NCBI GenBank assembly: GCA_029552245.1
Contig: JAKPDW010000021.1
Location: 1-64,000, forward strand
Reading direction: 5' to 3'
Source: Deltaproteobacteria bacterium
GTDB taxonomy: Bacteria; Desulfobacterota; Desulfomonilia; UBA1062
DNA length: 64,000 bases
Shown: piece by piece, positions 40,936 to 50,175 of the stretch
Layout of the letters: the number at the start of each line of letters is the position of its first letter
How positions within the stretch are numbered: position 1 is the stretch's first letter
Notes under the pieces: model-generated
Seen by the model: only the letters and a program-made list of their open reading frames with translations
What the model was told of the DNA's origin: nothing
Database searches by the model: none
Translations under genes and position numbers: made by a program

Positions 40936-41452
40936 ACCCGGCTCCACGGGACTCCGACACAGGACGCCTGCCAGGGCCTCCCCATGACGACGACCTGAAA
41001 CGGCCCACACCCGGCTCAACCCCCGCCGGAGGAAGTGAGGGAAAGGGCAAGGCACGGTGAGTTCCCGGTGCCCATCGTGCGGCCAGGGCGTAGTCTCCTC
41101 GACGGCGGGCCACGGCCGACACCCGCCTTTACCCTCTGCCAGGGGAGGTGCGGGAAAGGACAAGGTCACCATGAACGCCCGATACCCCTCAGGCAGGGCG
41201 TAGCCTCCTCGACGACGGGCGACGGCCCACACCCGCTTGCCCACGAGAGGCGAGGCAAGGGGCACGGCACGGTGAGTGCCCGGTGCGTTCAGACCTGTTT
41301 CCTCCGGAAAGGCTCGAGCCCCACCCATGACCTGGCCCTGGCCACCTTCAGGGCGCCCTTTGAGCCCGTTTTCCCTTGCCGTCACAAAACCCCCCGTGAT
41401 ATCTATGAAATAGATGATGCGCGGTCCAGGACACCATGACGAGGAACAAGGC
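40936..41452. repeat. Three degenerate ~110-bp tandem repeats in a gene-free gap
   Basis: Units start at CGGCC(C/G)ACAC at 41001, 41113 and 41223. Each continues with a GGAGG-like AG-rich block, GGGAAAGG-type sequence, and (units 1-2) CAGGGCGTAG-CTCCTCGACG. The copies are diverged. Past 41300 the DNA becomes A/T richer ahead of the omptin gene. No gene or promoter is convincing apart from a weak TTGCCG/TATCTA pair near 41376-41405. Confidence 0.65.
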
Positions 41453-42487
41453 ATGCCCGCTTCCTTTCCGGATGACGCCCACGGGTGTGAGGCCGGGGCT
41501 TTCCCGCACCGACGCACCGGTTCCCGCAGGAAACACCTGGGCAGCCTTTTCGCGGGGTGGTCGGCACTTCTGCTCGCCCTGCTGTCGCCTGGCCTTTGCC
41601 CTTCCCATGCCATGGACCTCGATGGGAGCATGGAGGTGTCCTGCGTGTCCATGACAGGCTTGACCACCTCCCGCACCTCGTACGACGGGGGTACAAGCGT
41701 CCTCAAGTGGCCGGTGGAGGGGGTGATGCCGTCGATGCGCGCGCGCCTTTCTTTCCGGGAGACCGTGGATGCAAGCATCCAGGTCACGGCCACGCCGTGG
41801 TACTCCCAGGATTCCAGGATGAGGGACTTCGACTACCTGGACGAGAGCGAGTGGAACAGGCAGGCGCACGAAGGGGTGGACATCTACTCGGAGACCGAGA
41901 CCGAGGCGAAGACCGTGGAACTGTCAACGCACCTCAGGTTCCTCCCTGTCTGCACAGGGTTCATGAGGGCGGGCCTCACCGCGGGATACAGCCGCAGGGA
42001 GCACGACTTCAGGGGTTTCGACACGATACAGACAGGCCACGGTCCCTGGGTCGACCAGGCGCGCACGCTCAAGGGGCCGAGCACCCTCTACAGCGTGAAG
42101 TACGAGATCTACTCGGCCGGGGTGGCCGTCGAGTGGACTTGCTTCGAGTCCCTCGCCGTCGCCCTGGAATGGGCCTCCCTGCCCGTCGTCCACGCAACGG
42201 ACGAGGACGACCACCTGAGGCGGAACCGGGCGGGCAGATCGAGCACGAGGGGATCGGGATACAGGACCTCGGTGTACGCCCTGGCCCCAGTCGGCCGAAG
42301 GCTCGCCGTCACGATGTCCTGCACCCACGAGCGCTTCGACACGGACGGGCGCCAGACCCAGTACTGGTACGGCGACGATCCCGCCACACCGGGTTTCAAC
42401 GATACGGGCTATGGTCTCGGCGGCATCAGGACGGACCTGGACTCCAGGTGCACGACCCTGTCCATAGGCTCGCGTGTCGCGTTCTGA
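41453..42487 (+). CDS. Omptin-family outer-membrane protease homologue
   Basis: 344 residues from the ATG with GAGGAA upstream (41453); an ATG at 41414 would add an unlikely N-terminus. A long basic N-region precedes the hydrophobic signal core (about residues 30-50). The mature part is a barrel of alternating strands ending in Arg-Val-Ala-Phe. Catalytic sites line up with OmpT: Asp125-Phe-Asp127 for Asp83/Asp85 (Met-x-Asp-x-Asp-x-x-Asp context) and Asp252-Asp-His254 for Asp210-Glu-His212. Omptins cleave between basic residues and need lipopolysaccharide. Known members are mostly gammaproteobacterial. Motif match is by eye; fold is inferred. Confidence 0.75.
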   Translation: MPASFPDDAHGCEAGAFPHRRTGSRRKHLGSLFAGWSALLLALLSPGLCPSHAMDLDGSMEVSCVSMTGLTTSRTSYDGGTSVLKWPVEGVMPSMRARLSFRETVDASIQVTATPWYSQDSRMRDFDYLDESEWNRQAHEGVDIYSETETEAKTVELSTHLRFLPVCTGFMRAGLTAGYSRREHDFRGFDTIQTGHGPWVDQARTLKGPSTLYSVKYEIYSAGVAVEWTCFESLAVALEWASLPVVHATDEDDHLRRNRAGRSSTRGSGYRTSVYALAPVGRRLAVTMSCTHERFDTDGRQTQYWYGDDPATPGFNDTGYGLGGIRTDLDSRCTTLSIGSRVAF

Positions 42488-42565: not shown

Positions 42566-43582
42566 ATGAGATCATACTCCTCGCTCAAGATACTCGTCGT
42601 GGGAACTGGGACGTTCTACCACCACAACCTCGAGAACATGCTCACCAAGATCGGCTTTCCCGCCCCTGAGCACGCAGACGACGGGCCTTCCGGGTGGGAG
42701 GCCGTGAAGCGCCTCATGCCGGACATCGTGGTCGCCCAGTGGGACATGCCGGAGATGAACGGCCTGGCGCTGCTCAAGGTCATCCGGTCGGACCCCTTCC
42801 ACGGCGAGACCCCTGTCATCCTCTGTACCAACGAGATCACCAAGAGCGACGTGATCAAGGCCGGGGAGTCGGGCGTGAACGCCATCCTCGTGGAGCCCTT
42901 GAGCATCGAGGTCCTCGAGCAGAAGATCAACCTCATCCTCGAGTTCGACATGACGCCGTCGACGAAACAGGCAAGGGCCTACCTGGAAAAGGGCGACAGG
43001 TACATGAGGGCGGGGCTGTTCGACCTCGCGCTCAAGGAGTACGAGCGGGTGCTCACCATCCTCGAGTCGGCCGAGGTCTACTACAATATCGGCTACATCA
43101 AGACAGCCCGGGGGGAATACGACGAGGCCCTGGTGGCGTTCAGGAAGGCGACGCAGATCAACCAGCTCTTCGCGAAGGCATACCAGGCCATGGCCGAGGT
43201 GTACATCAAGCTCGGCGACAAGGCCATGGCCGAGAAGTACCTCAACATGGCGGGGGAGATCTTCCTCGAGCGGGAGATGCACGAGAAGGCCGAGAGCGTG
43301 TTCAACGAGATCATCGCGCTCAATCCCGAGACCACGAACGTGTACAACAGCCTGGGCATCCTCTACCGCAGGCAGAACCGACACGCCGACGCGGTCAAGG
43401 TGTACCAGAAGGCCGTCAAGATCGACCCTGAGGACGAGAACATCCACTTCAACATGGGGAGGGCGTACCTGGAGATGGGCCAGCACGAACTCGCGAGGCA
43501 GTGTTTCAAGAAGGCCCTCGAGCTCAACCCCAGGTTCGACACCGCCCAGGCCATGCTCAAGGCGCTCGAGTCCATCGACTAG
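42566..43582 (+). CDS. Degenerate receiver domain fused to TPR repeats
   Basis: 338 residues. Residues 6-128 have the CheY-like pattern, but the acidic pair is Gly-Thr-Gly, the phospho-acceptor is Gln58 (Val-Val-Ala-Gln-Trp-Asp-Met-Pro) and the conserved Lys is Glu110. So it should not be phosphorylated normally. Residues about 135-335 are five or six TPR units with Tyr-Asn-Ile-Gly and Pro-Glu-Asp-Glu-Asn-Ile-like turns. Likely a protein-binding scaffold, for example for motility or type IV pili, but no neighbour confirms this. Own promoter; converges on the PFK-2-like gene. Confidence 0.85.
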   Translation: MRSYSSLKILVVGTGTFYHHNLENMLTKIGFPAPEHADDGPSGWEAVKRLMPDIVVAQWDMPEMNGLALLKVIRSDPFHGETPVILCTNEITKSDVIKAGESGVNAILVEPLSIEVLEQKINLILEFDMTPSTKQARAYLEKGDRYMRAGLFDLALKEYERVLTILESAEVYYNIGYIKTARGEYDEALVAFRKATQINQLFAKAYQAMAEVYIKLGDKAMAEKYLNMAGEIFLEREMHEKAESVFNEIIALNPETTNVYNSLGILYRRQNRHADAVKVYQKAVKIDPEDENIHFNMGRAYLEMGQHELARQCFKKALELNPRFDTAQAMLKALESID

Positions 43583-43712: not shown

Positions 43713-44963
43713 CTATCGGCCGGCCCTCCTGAAGTCGTACCTCTTCAGCTCGAACACCTTCCTGTCCTGGGTGGCCACGATGTGGTAGAACTTGTCCTGG
43801 GGGACGTAGATGTACGGCACGTCTTCCTCCCTGCGGTAGAGGAAGTGCGACAGGATCATGCGGTTGACCGCCCTGTGCCCGACGATCATGATGTTGTCGG
43901 GCTTCTGGTTCAGGAAGAAGGCCTTCTTGATGCCTATCTTGATGCGCTCCTTCATGGTCGCGTACCCTTCGCCCAGGGGGTAGGTGTAGTTGTACTTGTC
44001 CGCCTTGCGCGCGGCATAGACGTCGGGCTTCAGGCGCTGTATCTCGTCGTAGGTCATGCCCTCGCAGATACCCGCGTCTATCTCGTTGAACTCCTTGAGG
44101 GGCACGATCGTGCAGTCCTCCTGGAGGGCCTGGATGTAGTGGGCGGTCTGGATCGTGCGCTTCTTCTCGCTCGTGAAGATGTAGGCGATCTTCTTCTTCT
44201 GGAAGAACCGGCCCAGGGCCTGCGCCTGGGTTATTCCCCTGTGGGTGAGGTCCGGATCACCGCCGATCCGGTCTTCAACGTTGAACTCGCTCTCGGTGTG
44301 CCTGATCAGGAAGAGGCTCTTGACGACGTCGGTGACGAGGCAGTCCCTGATGCGGGAATACAGGGGGATCTGGTCCTCGATCTGCTCGTCTATGACCCTG
44401 TTGTGAAGTGAATCCATGGTGATGTAGTTCCGCTCCACGTGGAGGGGGTTGTAGATCTCCCTGTAATACTCGATGCGTTTCTTGAATTCCATGACAGCCG
44501 TCTCTTCGGGCATCCCCGCGAACTCGTTGGTCCGGACCTTGTGGCGGATGCTCAGGTCCACGATCTCCACGTCGTTGTTCACGCACTCGATGTAGAGGAT
44601 GGGGTGGTCGTCGAGCTGCTGCTCGATGAGTTCCCGCCTCGACCTGCTCACGTTGGTGGCGTCCAGTATGGCCACCTGGCCCTTGTTCCTGAGGTAGGCC
44701 TTGGCCCGCCTCATGTTCATGAGCGCGAACTCCTTCCTGAGCTGGACCGCGGCCGTGTTGCGCGGGTCGTAGAAGTCCGACATCCATGTTTCCTGCGGCG
44801 CCAGCTTCCTCCTGAGCTCGCCGTTGTTGTAGATCATGGTGTGGATGTCGTTCTTTGTGAAGATGTCCTGGAGCCTATTGGCCACCGTGGACTTGCCCTG
44901 GGACGGCAGGCCCACCATCACGATGTAGAGTTTCTCGTCCTTGGGGATCATGGGCACCTTCAT
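43713..44963 (-). CDS. 6-phosphofructo-2-kinase/fructose-2,6-bisphosphatase-like protein
   Basis: 416 residues from ATG 44963; ATG 44951 with AAGGTG upstream is an alternative. The N-terminal P-loop Gly-Leu-Pro-Ser-Gln-Gly-Lys-Ser and Asp-Ala-Thr-Asn-Val-Ser-Arg-x-Arg-Arg match the 6PF2K kinase. The phosphatase half begins near residue 218 with Ile-Arg-His-Thr-Glu-Ser-Glu-Phe-Asn (RHG becomes RHT). It keeps Gly-Gly-Asp, Lys-Arg-Thr-Ile-Gln-Thr-Ala, Glu-Ile-Asp-Ala-Gly-Ile-Cys-Glu and Gly-His-Arg-Ala-Val-x-Arg. Order, length and motifs match eukaryotic PFKFB. That enzyme makes and degrades fructose 2,6-bisphosphate; whether this one does is unknown, and another nucleotide- or sugar-phosphate role is possible. 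Confidence 0.82.
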   Translation of the reverse strand: MKVPMIPKDEKLYIVMVGLPSQGKSTVANRLQDIFTKNDIHTMIYNNGELRRKLAPQETWMSDFYDPRNTAAVQLRKEFALMNMRRAKAYLRNKGQVAILDATNVSRSRRELIEQQLDDHPILYIECVNNDVEIVDLSIRHKVRTNEFAGMPEETAVMEFKKRIEYYREIYNPLHVERNYITMDSLHNRVIDEQIEDQIPLYSRIRDCLVTDVVKSLFLIRHTESEFNVEDRIGGDPDLTHRGITQAQALGRFFQKKKIAYIFTSEKKRTIQTAHYIQALQEDCTIVPLKEFNEIDAGICEGMTYDEIQRLKPDVYAARKADKYNYTYPLGEGYATMKERIKIGIKKAFFLNQKPDNIMIVGHRAVNRMILSHFLYRREEDVPYIYVPQDKFYHIVATQDRKVFELKRYDFRRAGR

Positions 44964-45423
44964 AGCACCCGCAGGTGCGGGGCACAAGGGCATGTCCGGG
45001 GCGCGCCACGGGCCGCCGGCGCCCGGGCGGCCCGCGGGCTGCCCGGGAGGGCTGCCGGCCTCATCCCCGGGCCGATGCATATGCCATCCAGACACCCCCG
45101 CATCCTGAACGAGGGGCGGGGATACGAAGTGGGGGCCGCGTGCGGCACACACAACGGACGATCGCCCTTACCGTACTCCTCGAAGCATCCGGGGTCGAGA
45201 CGACAACGAGCCCGGACGAAGTTCTTGCCCGAGAGAAACCCGGCGTTCACGATCGGGCAGAGGCAGGACTCACCGCCTGGTGGCCGCTGCATCCCATTGC
45301 GCCATGAGCAGAGGCTCGCACTGCCTCCCGAGCGAGCCCCGGCAAGAGGGCGCCGCCCTTCTGACACGCAAAGATCCGCTCGACACAACGATCCGCAGGC
45401 CCTCCAGGCCGGAGAAAAACACC
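44964..45423. other. Gene-free region with a G+C-rich hairpin
   Basis: About 460 bp. GGGCCGCC-N8-GGCGGCCC (45010-45033) lies some 50 bases upstream of the PFK-2-like start on its transcript side. It could affect leader folding. The frame of the PFK-2-like gene extends upstream here, but its sequence is low complexity and is not counted as coding. Confidence 0.45.
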
Positions 45424-45464: not shown

Positions 45465-45538
45465 TGGGGGATGGTCTAACGGCAAGACAGCGGACTCTGA
45501 CTCCGTTTATCTAGGTTCGAATCCTAGTCCCCCAGCCA
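45465..45538 (+). tRNA. tRNA-Gln (CTG)
   Basis: Acceptor TGGGGGA pairs with TCCCCCA; U1-A72 is the known identity feature of tRNA-Gln. Loop CTCTGAC gives anticodon CTG. G73 and encoded CCA present. 74 nt. Confidence 0.96.
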
Positions 45539-45551
45539 GCGTACAGCGTGC

Positions 45552-45627
45552 GGTCCCATCGTCTAGTGGCCTAGGACAACGGCCTCTCACGCCGTAAACA
45601 GGGGTTCGATTCCCCTTGGGACTACCA
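45552..45627 (+). tRNA. tRNA-Glu (CTC)
   Basis: Acceptor GGTCCCA pairs with TGGGACT, leaving a G1-U72 wobble; loop CTCTCAC gives anticodon CTC; A73 and CCA encoded. 13 bases after tRNA-Gln, so one transcript. Confidence 0.95.
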
Positions 45628-47997: not shown

Positions 47998-48033
47998 ACA
48001 TAGAACTCAACGTGAGTGCCGAGGTACCCGTCC

Positions 48034-50175
48034 ATGGCAGGACCGACGAAGAACGCACCACCTTCAGGCGCAACAGACCCGTCCAGGCCCGTTGACTTCA
48101 TCAGGGCCATCATCAACGACCACATGAGGACCGGGAGGTTCGAGGGTAAGGTCCACACGCGCTTCCCGCCGGAGCCGAACGGCTACCTGCACATAGGCCA
48201 CGCCAAGTCGATCTTCCTGAACTTCGGCATCGCGCAGGAGTACGAAGGCCTGTGCAACCTGCGCTTCGACGACACGAACCCCTCCAAGGAGGACCAGGAG
48301 TACATCGACTCCATCATCGAGGACGTGAGGTGGCTCGGGATGGACTGGGGGGACCGGATGTTCTTCGCCTCGGACTACTTCGAGAAGACCTACGAGCTGG
48401 CCGAGGAGCTCATAAAAAAGGGGCTCGCCTACGTGTGCGACCTCACCCCGGAGGAGGTCAGGCAGTACCGGGGGACCCTCACCGAGCCGGGCAGGGAGAG
48501 CCCGTATCGCAACCGCAGCGTGGAGGAGAATCTCGAGCTGTTCAGGCGGATGAGGGCCGGCGAGTTCGAAGACGGCTCGAGGACGCTCAGGGCGAAGATA
48601 GACATGGCCTCTCCCAACATGAACATGAGGGACCCCGTGATCTACAGGATCCTCAGGGCGACGCACCACCGGACGGGCGACGACTGGTGTATCTACCCCA
48701 TGTACGACTTCGCCCACCCCATCTCCGACTCCCTCGAAGGCATCACCCATTCCATCTGCACGCTCGAGTTCGAGGATCACCGCCCGCTGTACGACTGGTT
48801 CCTGGAGAAGCTCGGCATGTTCCACTCCCAGCAGATCGAGTTCGCGAGGCTGAACCTCAGCTACACCCTCATGAGCAAGCGGAGGCTCCTGGAGCTCGTG
48901 GAACTGGGCGTGGTGGAGGGCTGGGACGATCCGCGCATGCCGACCATCGCCGGGCTGCGCCGCAGGGGGTACACGCCAGAGGCCATCAGGAAATTCTGCG
49001 ATCGCATCGGCGTGTCGAAGAAAGACAGCATGGTGGACCTGGCGCTGCTCGAGCACGTGGTACGGGAAGACCTCAACGAACGGTGTCCGCGCGTGATGGC
49101 CGTGCTCGACCCCCTGAGGCTGACCATCGAGAACTACCCCGAGGGCCTTGTCGAGGAGTTCGAGATACCGAACCACCCGGACAGGCCTGAGATGGGGACG
49201 AGGAAGGTCCCCTTCTGCAAGACCCTGTATATCGAGCGGGACGATTTCAGCGAGGACCCGCCCCCGAAATTCCACAGGCTCGCACCCGGCAAGGAGGTGA
49301 GGCTCAGGGGCGCTTACCTCGTGACCTGCACCGGGGTGGACAGAGACCCCCGGACCGGCGAGACCGTGGGCGTCAGGTGCGCCTACGACCCAGCCTCTCG
49401 AGGCGGCGATGCACCCGACGGCAGAAAGGTCAGGGGCACCATCCACTGGGTGTCGGCCGAGCACGCCGTCGAGGCGGAGGTGAGGCTGTACGACCGTCTC
49501 TTCACGGTGGAGAACATCGCCGCCGAGGCCGAGAGGACGGGCAGGGACTACAAAGACTTCCTCAACCCCGCCTCCCTCGTGGTCCTCAGGGGGTGCAAGA
49601 TGGAGCCCTCGGTCAAGGACGCCCCCGCCTACAGCAGGTTCCAGTTCGAGCGCCAGGGCTACTTCTGCGTCGACCCGAAGGCAACGTCGCCGGGCAGGCC
49701 CGTCTTCAACAGGACCGTCCAGCTCAGGGACACCTGGGCGAAGATCGAGAAGGCCTCTGCCGGCAAGGCCGCTGGACCAGGCTCGGAAACGGCCGCGGAG
49801 GGCAAGGGCGCCTCTCCCTCGGAAGGTGACCATGGCGTGGAGGCCCGCGAGATCACCATCGAGGACTTCACCAAGGTCGACCTCAGGGTGGGGCGCGTGC
49901 TCGAGGCGCACGCCGTGGAAGGCTCGGACAAGCTGGTGCGGCTCCTGGTGGATCTCGGGGAGCCGAGACCAAGGAACATCGTCGCTGGCATACGGAAGGC
50001 CTATCCCGAGCCGGTCGGGCTCGTCGGGAAGCTCGTGCTGGTGGTCGCCAACCTCAGGCCGAGGAAGATGAGGTCCGGCCTGTCGGAAGGCATGATCCTG
50101 GCCGCGGGCAGCGGCGATCACTGGCGCATCTGCACGGTCGACGGCGACATGTCGCCGGGAGCGAAGGTGTCCTGA
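48034..50175 (+). CDS. glnS: Glutaminyl-tRNA synthetase with C-terminal MetRS-type tRNA-binding domain
   Basis: 713 residues from ATG 48034 with GAGGT 8 bases upstream; GTG 48016 is less likely. Residues about 15-550 are class I GlnRS: [12 protein letters not shown], Phe-Asp-Asp-Thr-Asn-Pro, and Leu-Met-Ser-Lys-Arg (KMSKS), then the two-barrel anticodon domain. A Lys/Ala/Gly/Glu linker leads to residues 603-713: [14 protein letters not shown] ... Ala-Asn-Leu-Arg-Pro-Arg-Lys-Met, the EMAPII/Trbp111-like OB domain normally at the MetRS C-terminus. It should add nonspecific tRNA affinity. tRNA-Gln and tRNA-Glu lie 2.4 kb upstream. Confidence 0.93.

Follow-up and report, generated by a model that had tools for sequence, protein, structure and literature searches.

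A predicted bacterial 6-phosphofructo-2-kinase/fructose-2,6-bisphosphatase from Desulfobacterota and its association with class I fructose-1,6-bisphosphatase

The gene and its surroundings

The window, a stretch of 64,000 nucleotides, carries on its minus strand a gene for a predicted bifunctional 6-phosphofructo-2-kinase/fructose-2,6-bisphosphatase (PFK-2/FBPase-2), which is listed in Table 1 together with its neighbours. The open reading frame was first delimited as 44963..43713 (416 amino acids), and an earlier note on this DNA had described its architecture as that of PFK-2/FBPase-2. This frame was confirmed and is real, as seen from Pfam domains and from the differences to the nearest homologue (L005), which amount to 0.12/0.08/0.31 at codon positions 1/2/3. 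As changes occur mostly at the third position, the gene is under selection at the protein level.

Frame and strand stand as first delimited, but the start codon needs correction. A strictly spaced box (TTG[T/C]NN-17-TATNNN) lies 6-8 nt before an ATG in 16/16 members of the subclade to which the window gene belongs (the window gene itself and L001-L005, L011, L013-L015, L017, L019, L022, L023, L025 and L026). Because of this conserved spacing, the true start is almost certainly M5 (44951) and not 44963, where the codon overlaps the -10 element of the promoter. From the short distance between box and ATG, a leaderless mRNA is predicted. A generic consensus promoter scan did not list the box at 44959..44987, and the promoter reading rests on conservation. 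In many members of the subclade, an additional TTGTCAAG element is found upstream of the box.

Judged from its surroundings, the gene is probably monocistronic. An operon logic was considered for the window and rejected, as the neighbours (tRNA-Gln/Glu, a response regulator-TPR protein, an omptin-like protein and an ABC transporter ATPase) have no evident metabolic link. The response regulator-TPR gene is kept beside PFK-2/FBPase-2 in several relatives.

Table 1. Positions of the PFK-2/FBPase-2 gene, its parts and its neighbours in the window
Feature	Position	Strand	Remarks
Omptin-like outer-membrane beta-barrel	41414-42487	+	PF01278, 29.6 bits vs cut-off 22.6
Response regulator receiver-TPR repeat fusion	42566-43582	+	Converges on PFK-2/FBPase-2 gene
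Bifunctional PFK-2/FBPase-2 gene	43713..44951	-	412 aa from M5; Pfam, phmmer, conserved promoter/ATG spacing
Fructose-2,6-bisphosphatase (histidine phosphatase) domain	43749..44315	-	RHTESE ... NEIDAG ... GHRAVNR; Pfam
6-Phosphofructo-2-kinase domain	44367..44942	-	Walker A GLPSQGKS, F6P-site arginines, DATN; Pfam
Predicted sigma70-type promoter TTGTGC-17-TATGAA	44959..44987	-	Ends 7 nt before ATG; conserved spacing
tRNA-Gln(ctg)	45465-45538	+	Tandem with tRNA-Glu(ctc)
tRNA-Glu(ctc)	45552-45627	+	Tandem with tRNA-Gln(ctg)
Secreted-looking protein, 439 aa	45881-47200	-	No Pfam match at E 1e-5
Glutaminyl-tRNA synthetase-like ORF	48016-50175		Near the tRNA-Gln/tRNA-Glu pair; named from sequence by eye

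Domain architecture and predicted structure

Two Pfam domains were identified in one chain, 6PF2K (residues 8-199, E 5e-38, 131 bits vs cut-off 27) and, C-terminal to it, His_Phos_1 (residues 217-405, E 1e-36, 126.6 bits vs cut-off 21.7). PFKFB chains were the top matches in a phmmer search of PDB, the best being 1k6m (E 7e-63), which aligned unbroken over residues 13-389. Since this match runs in one stretch, domain order and linker agree with PFKFB, and the full PFK-2/FBPase-2 architecture in the eukaryotic order, linker included, which had been claimed earlier, is borne out. Identity to human PFKFB1 is 38% (38.3%) over 363 residues and reaches 44.6% in the phosphatase half.

The single-domain histidine phosphatases CobC, PspA and GpmB share the phosphatase fold and the RH[GT] motif with the window protein but, unlike it, are without a kinase domain. 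The protein also stayed far below the curated equivalog cut-offs for CobC (alpha-ribazole phosphatase; 91 vs 162.9), PspA (72 vs 350), GpmB and dPGM. From its sequence, the gene product is well supported as a genuine bacterial PFK-2/FBPase-2.

An AlphaFold2 monomer model of the protein was confident, with a pLDDT of 92.5 and a pTM of 0.87, and its top 26 Foldseek matches were PFKFB entries (best E 1e-34). The phosphatase domain of the model superposed on rat FBPase-2 with a TM of 0.90-0.91, whereas the whole chain compared to PFKFB crystals gave a TM of 0.48 and an rmsd of 17, with the two domains placed differently. A control model of the eukaryote-like homologue L028 behaved alike; thus, the deviating orientation may be a modelling effect, via the alignment or dimer contacts, rather than a real bacterial difference.

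Distribution and phylogeny

Of 23 relatives sampled from the genus or family of the window's genome, 21 have PFK-2/FBPase-2 as well; the two negative genomes are 98% and 77% complete. It is thus a core gene of this family. A survey for PF01591 covering the phylum (Desulfobacterota-like) detected the gene in 56/395 genomes from ten families. Both domains were present in one frame in all homologues fetched, except two clipped by contig ends.

The tree largely tracks families. With mammalian sequences as the eukaryotic representatives, the bacterial proteins form a deep clade apart from mammals and L028, supported at 100/100. L028 (G378:C17:93672-94211) comes from the same phylum but is joined to the mammals with 100/100 support, its own branch being very long; a transfer from or to eukaryotes is possible, as judged from this placement. 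A mobile or viral origin of the gene was also considered and rejected, as phages and plasmids gave matches to the histidine-phosphatase half only and no full-length relative, and viral contigs gave none.

Association with class I FBPase and proposed function

Class I FBPase (PF00316) was present in 40/40 carriers of PFK-2/FBPase-2 vs 60/118 non-carriers (19/40 plus 41/78, the latter after exclusion of two genomes from the family of the window), corresponding to p 4e-10 by genome, a value for genomes that are not phylogenetically independent. Counted by family, it occurred in 9/9 carrier vs 14/28 non-carrier families (p 0.007), a test that does not fully remove shared ancestry. The class I enzyme is divergent and scores lower in four of these carriers, which belong to family f32. 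Class II FBPase (GlpX) was rejected as the linked enzyme, as it was not associated (7/40 carriers vs 5/40 non-carriers).

In nine genomes of families f34 and f50 (G108, G214, G237, G258, G296, G315, G351, G368 and G386), the gene for class I FBPase precedes PFK-2/FBPase-2 on the same strand, 2-5 kb upstream. As far as the intervening DNA was read, it contains genes on the opposite strand, and the linkage is therefore a matter of neighbourhood and not of an operon. It may go back to one ancestral event, and was not seen in carriers from the family of the window. The genome of the window encodes, on contig 5, a class I FBPase closest to that of E. coli, with common blocks including NEGNY and GKLRLLYE. 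At the active site of class I FBPases, fructose 2,6-bisphosphate acts as a competitor. PMC6400660 cites a structure paper on the inhibition of both the mammalian and the bacterial enzyme by this compound.

In the proposed mechanism, the N-terminal half of the window protein would phosphorylate fructose 6-phosphate (F6P) at C2 at the expense of ATP, and the C-terminal half would remove the C2 phosphate via a phosphohistidine at H222, so that the amount of fructose 2,6-bisphosphate would depend on both halves together. The likeliest receptor of this signal would be the cell's own class I fructose-1,6-bisphosphatase, with its active site blocked, and the window enzyme would switch gluconeogenesis, and futile cycling against phosphofructokinase (PFK), on or off. 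The genome of the window encodes two PFKs, on contig 57 (L127) and contig 43 (L128), with the cofactor-site motifs GGEDT/PKTIDGD (PPi-like) and GGDGT/PKTIDND. Together with class I FBPase, these provide opposing fluxes at the F6P step that exist to be controlled. A genuine PFK-2/FBPase-2 that controls gluconeogenesis via class I FBPase by setting fructose 2,6-bisphosphate is considered the probable function; we infer both activities, the metabolite and the target.

The product might instead act mainly on PFK, of the ATP or PPi type, or on another enzyme. Eukaryotic PFK-1 and, in plants, PPi-PFK are known targets of fructose 2,6-bisphosphate, and one of the two PFKs of the genome is PPi-like. 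However, PFK genes are near-universal in both sets (39/40 carriers vs 35/40 non-carriers, no clear difference), so that PFK was rejected as a target by co-occurrence, whereas class I FBPase is both associated and linked. A main target other than class I FBPase is thus regarded as unlikely.

Active-site residues

The window protein was aligned with human and bovine PFKFB1-3 and 63 bacterial homologues, and invariance was scored over 53 aligned bacterial sequences. The residues reported to form the F6P pocket of PFKFB3 (R74, R75, R98, D124, T126, R132, R189 and Y193; PMC3177832) are all eight retained as identical residues in the window protein (R51, R52, R76, D101, T103, R109, R163 and Y167, respectively). 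Except for T103, they are invariant in the 53 bacterial sequences; at this position, 56 T, 5 S, 2 A and 1 N were counted among 64 sequences. A loss of F6P-binding residues, named in the earlier note as grounds for refutation, is not seen in the window protein.

In the phosphatase half, R221, H222, N228, R269, E294, R319, K323, H363 and R368 are invariant in the same 53 sequences, and Y305 is nearly so. By analogy to rat and human liver FBPase-2, we take H222, E294 and H363 to be the catalytic His/Glu/His, and the bisphosphate-binding Arg, Lys and Asn to be among R221, N228, R269, R319 and K323. With F6P contacts and catalytic residues kept, the suggestion in the earlier note that this gene is a putative bacterial source of fructose 2,6-bisphosphate is well supported at the level of sequence.

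Some positions deviate from PFKFB. The P-loop Arg is replaced by Q22 (Q in 15/64) and the equivalent of Q393 is R364 (R in 44/64, Q in 20/64), both near substrate sites, N47 stands for Leu/Val, and the position of PFKFB3 T128 is occupied by V/A/I/C in every bacterial member and never by Thr. These few differences at the P-loop and around the phosphatase site, together with the other domain orientation in the model, would suit a PFKFB architecture acting on a different sugar phosphate, such as a heptulose or another ketose phosphate. Such a substrate is improbable, however, as none of the published F6P contacts that were checked has been lost, and the phosphatase also keeps its bisphosphate-binding residues.

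The third residue of the RH[G/T/A] motif (G259 position) is Thr in the window protein, in which the earlier note had seen a possible change in the balance of the two activities. Among the homologues, RHT occurs in 25/64, RHG in 37/64 and RHA in 2/64, and RHT is restricted to a well-supported clade of f1 and f32 (27 sequences), where it is the normal form. Compared across homologues, RHT is a lineage variant and not a lesion of the window gene; found clade-wide, it was rejected as an inactivating substitution, and with the catalytic set intact it is by itself no sign of an altered kinase/phosphatase balance. An effectively one-way enzyme, in which RHT or the P-loop glutamine of the window's genus (Q22 for Arg) silences one half, has a precedent in the monofunctional PFK-2/FBPase-2 isoforms of fungi (PMC9721465) but is very unlikely, since RHT is normal in its clade, the catalytic residues are complete in both halves and both domains stay conserved.

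Comparison with known systems and implications

The bifunctional reading places the window protein next to the eukaryotic PFKFB1-4, with which it shares the order of kinase and phosphatase in one chain, the F6P and catalytic residues and 35-38% identity over about 370 residues, and which are its best PDB matches by sequence and fold. It differs from them in the substitutions described above, in the deep separate clade of the bacterial proteins and in a chain too short to hold either the autoregulatory N-terminal extension or a long tail at the C-terminus.

As usually taught, fructose 2,6-bisphosphate is a hallmark of eukaryotes in the control of glycolysis and gluconeogenesis. Desulfovibrio desulfuricans and the window organism belong to the same broad, deltaproteobacterial group. 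The view of the earlier note that the metabolite is eukaryotic was too narrow, as a 2022 paper (PMC9721465, citing Rider et al. 2004) describes it as absent from bacteria except Desulfovibrio desulfuricans. According to this paper, that species is a bacterial case of the same signal as proposed here; the bacterial kind was therefore already known, and the window gene is not its first case. The family of the window is a different one, and its nearest relatives are uncultured MAGs. In the literature covered, mostly outside subscription journals, no paper was found on the breadth across the phylum or on a tie to class I FBPase. New here are the breadth across the phylum, the correction of promoter and start and the association with class I FBPase, whereas the kind itself is known and little-studied.

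Control of class I FBPase by fructose 2,6-bisphosphate might even be an old and widespread bacterial circuit of Desulfobacterota and a core function of entire families, and eukaryotic PFKFB could descend from such a bacterial enzyme instead of having arisen in eukaryotes, a speculative and rather doubtful proposal at present. If the proposed function is true, a complete fructose 2,6-bisphosphate switch would work in bacteria, encoded by a core gene that tracks, and partly neighbours, class I FBPase, a known target of the signal. It would offer a simple system without phosphorylated tails in which to study this switch, and would bear on the origin of the eukaryotic PFK-2/FBPase-2.
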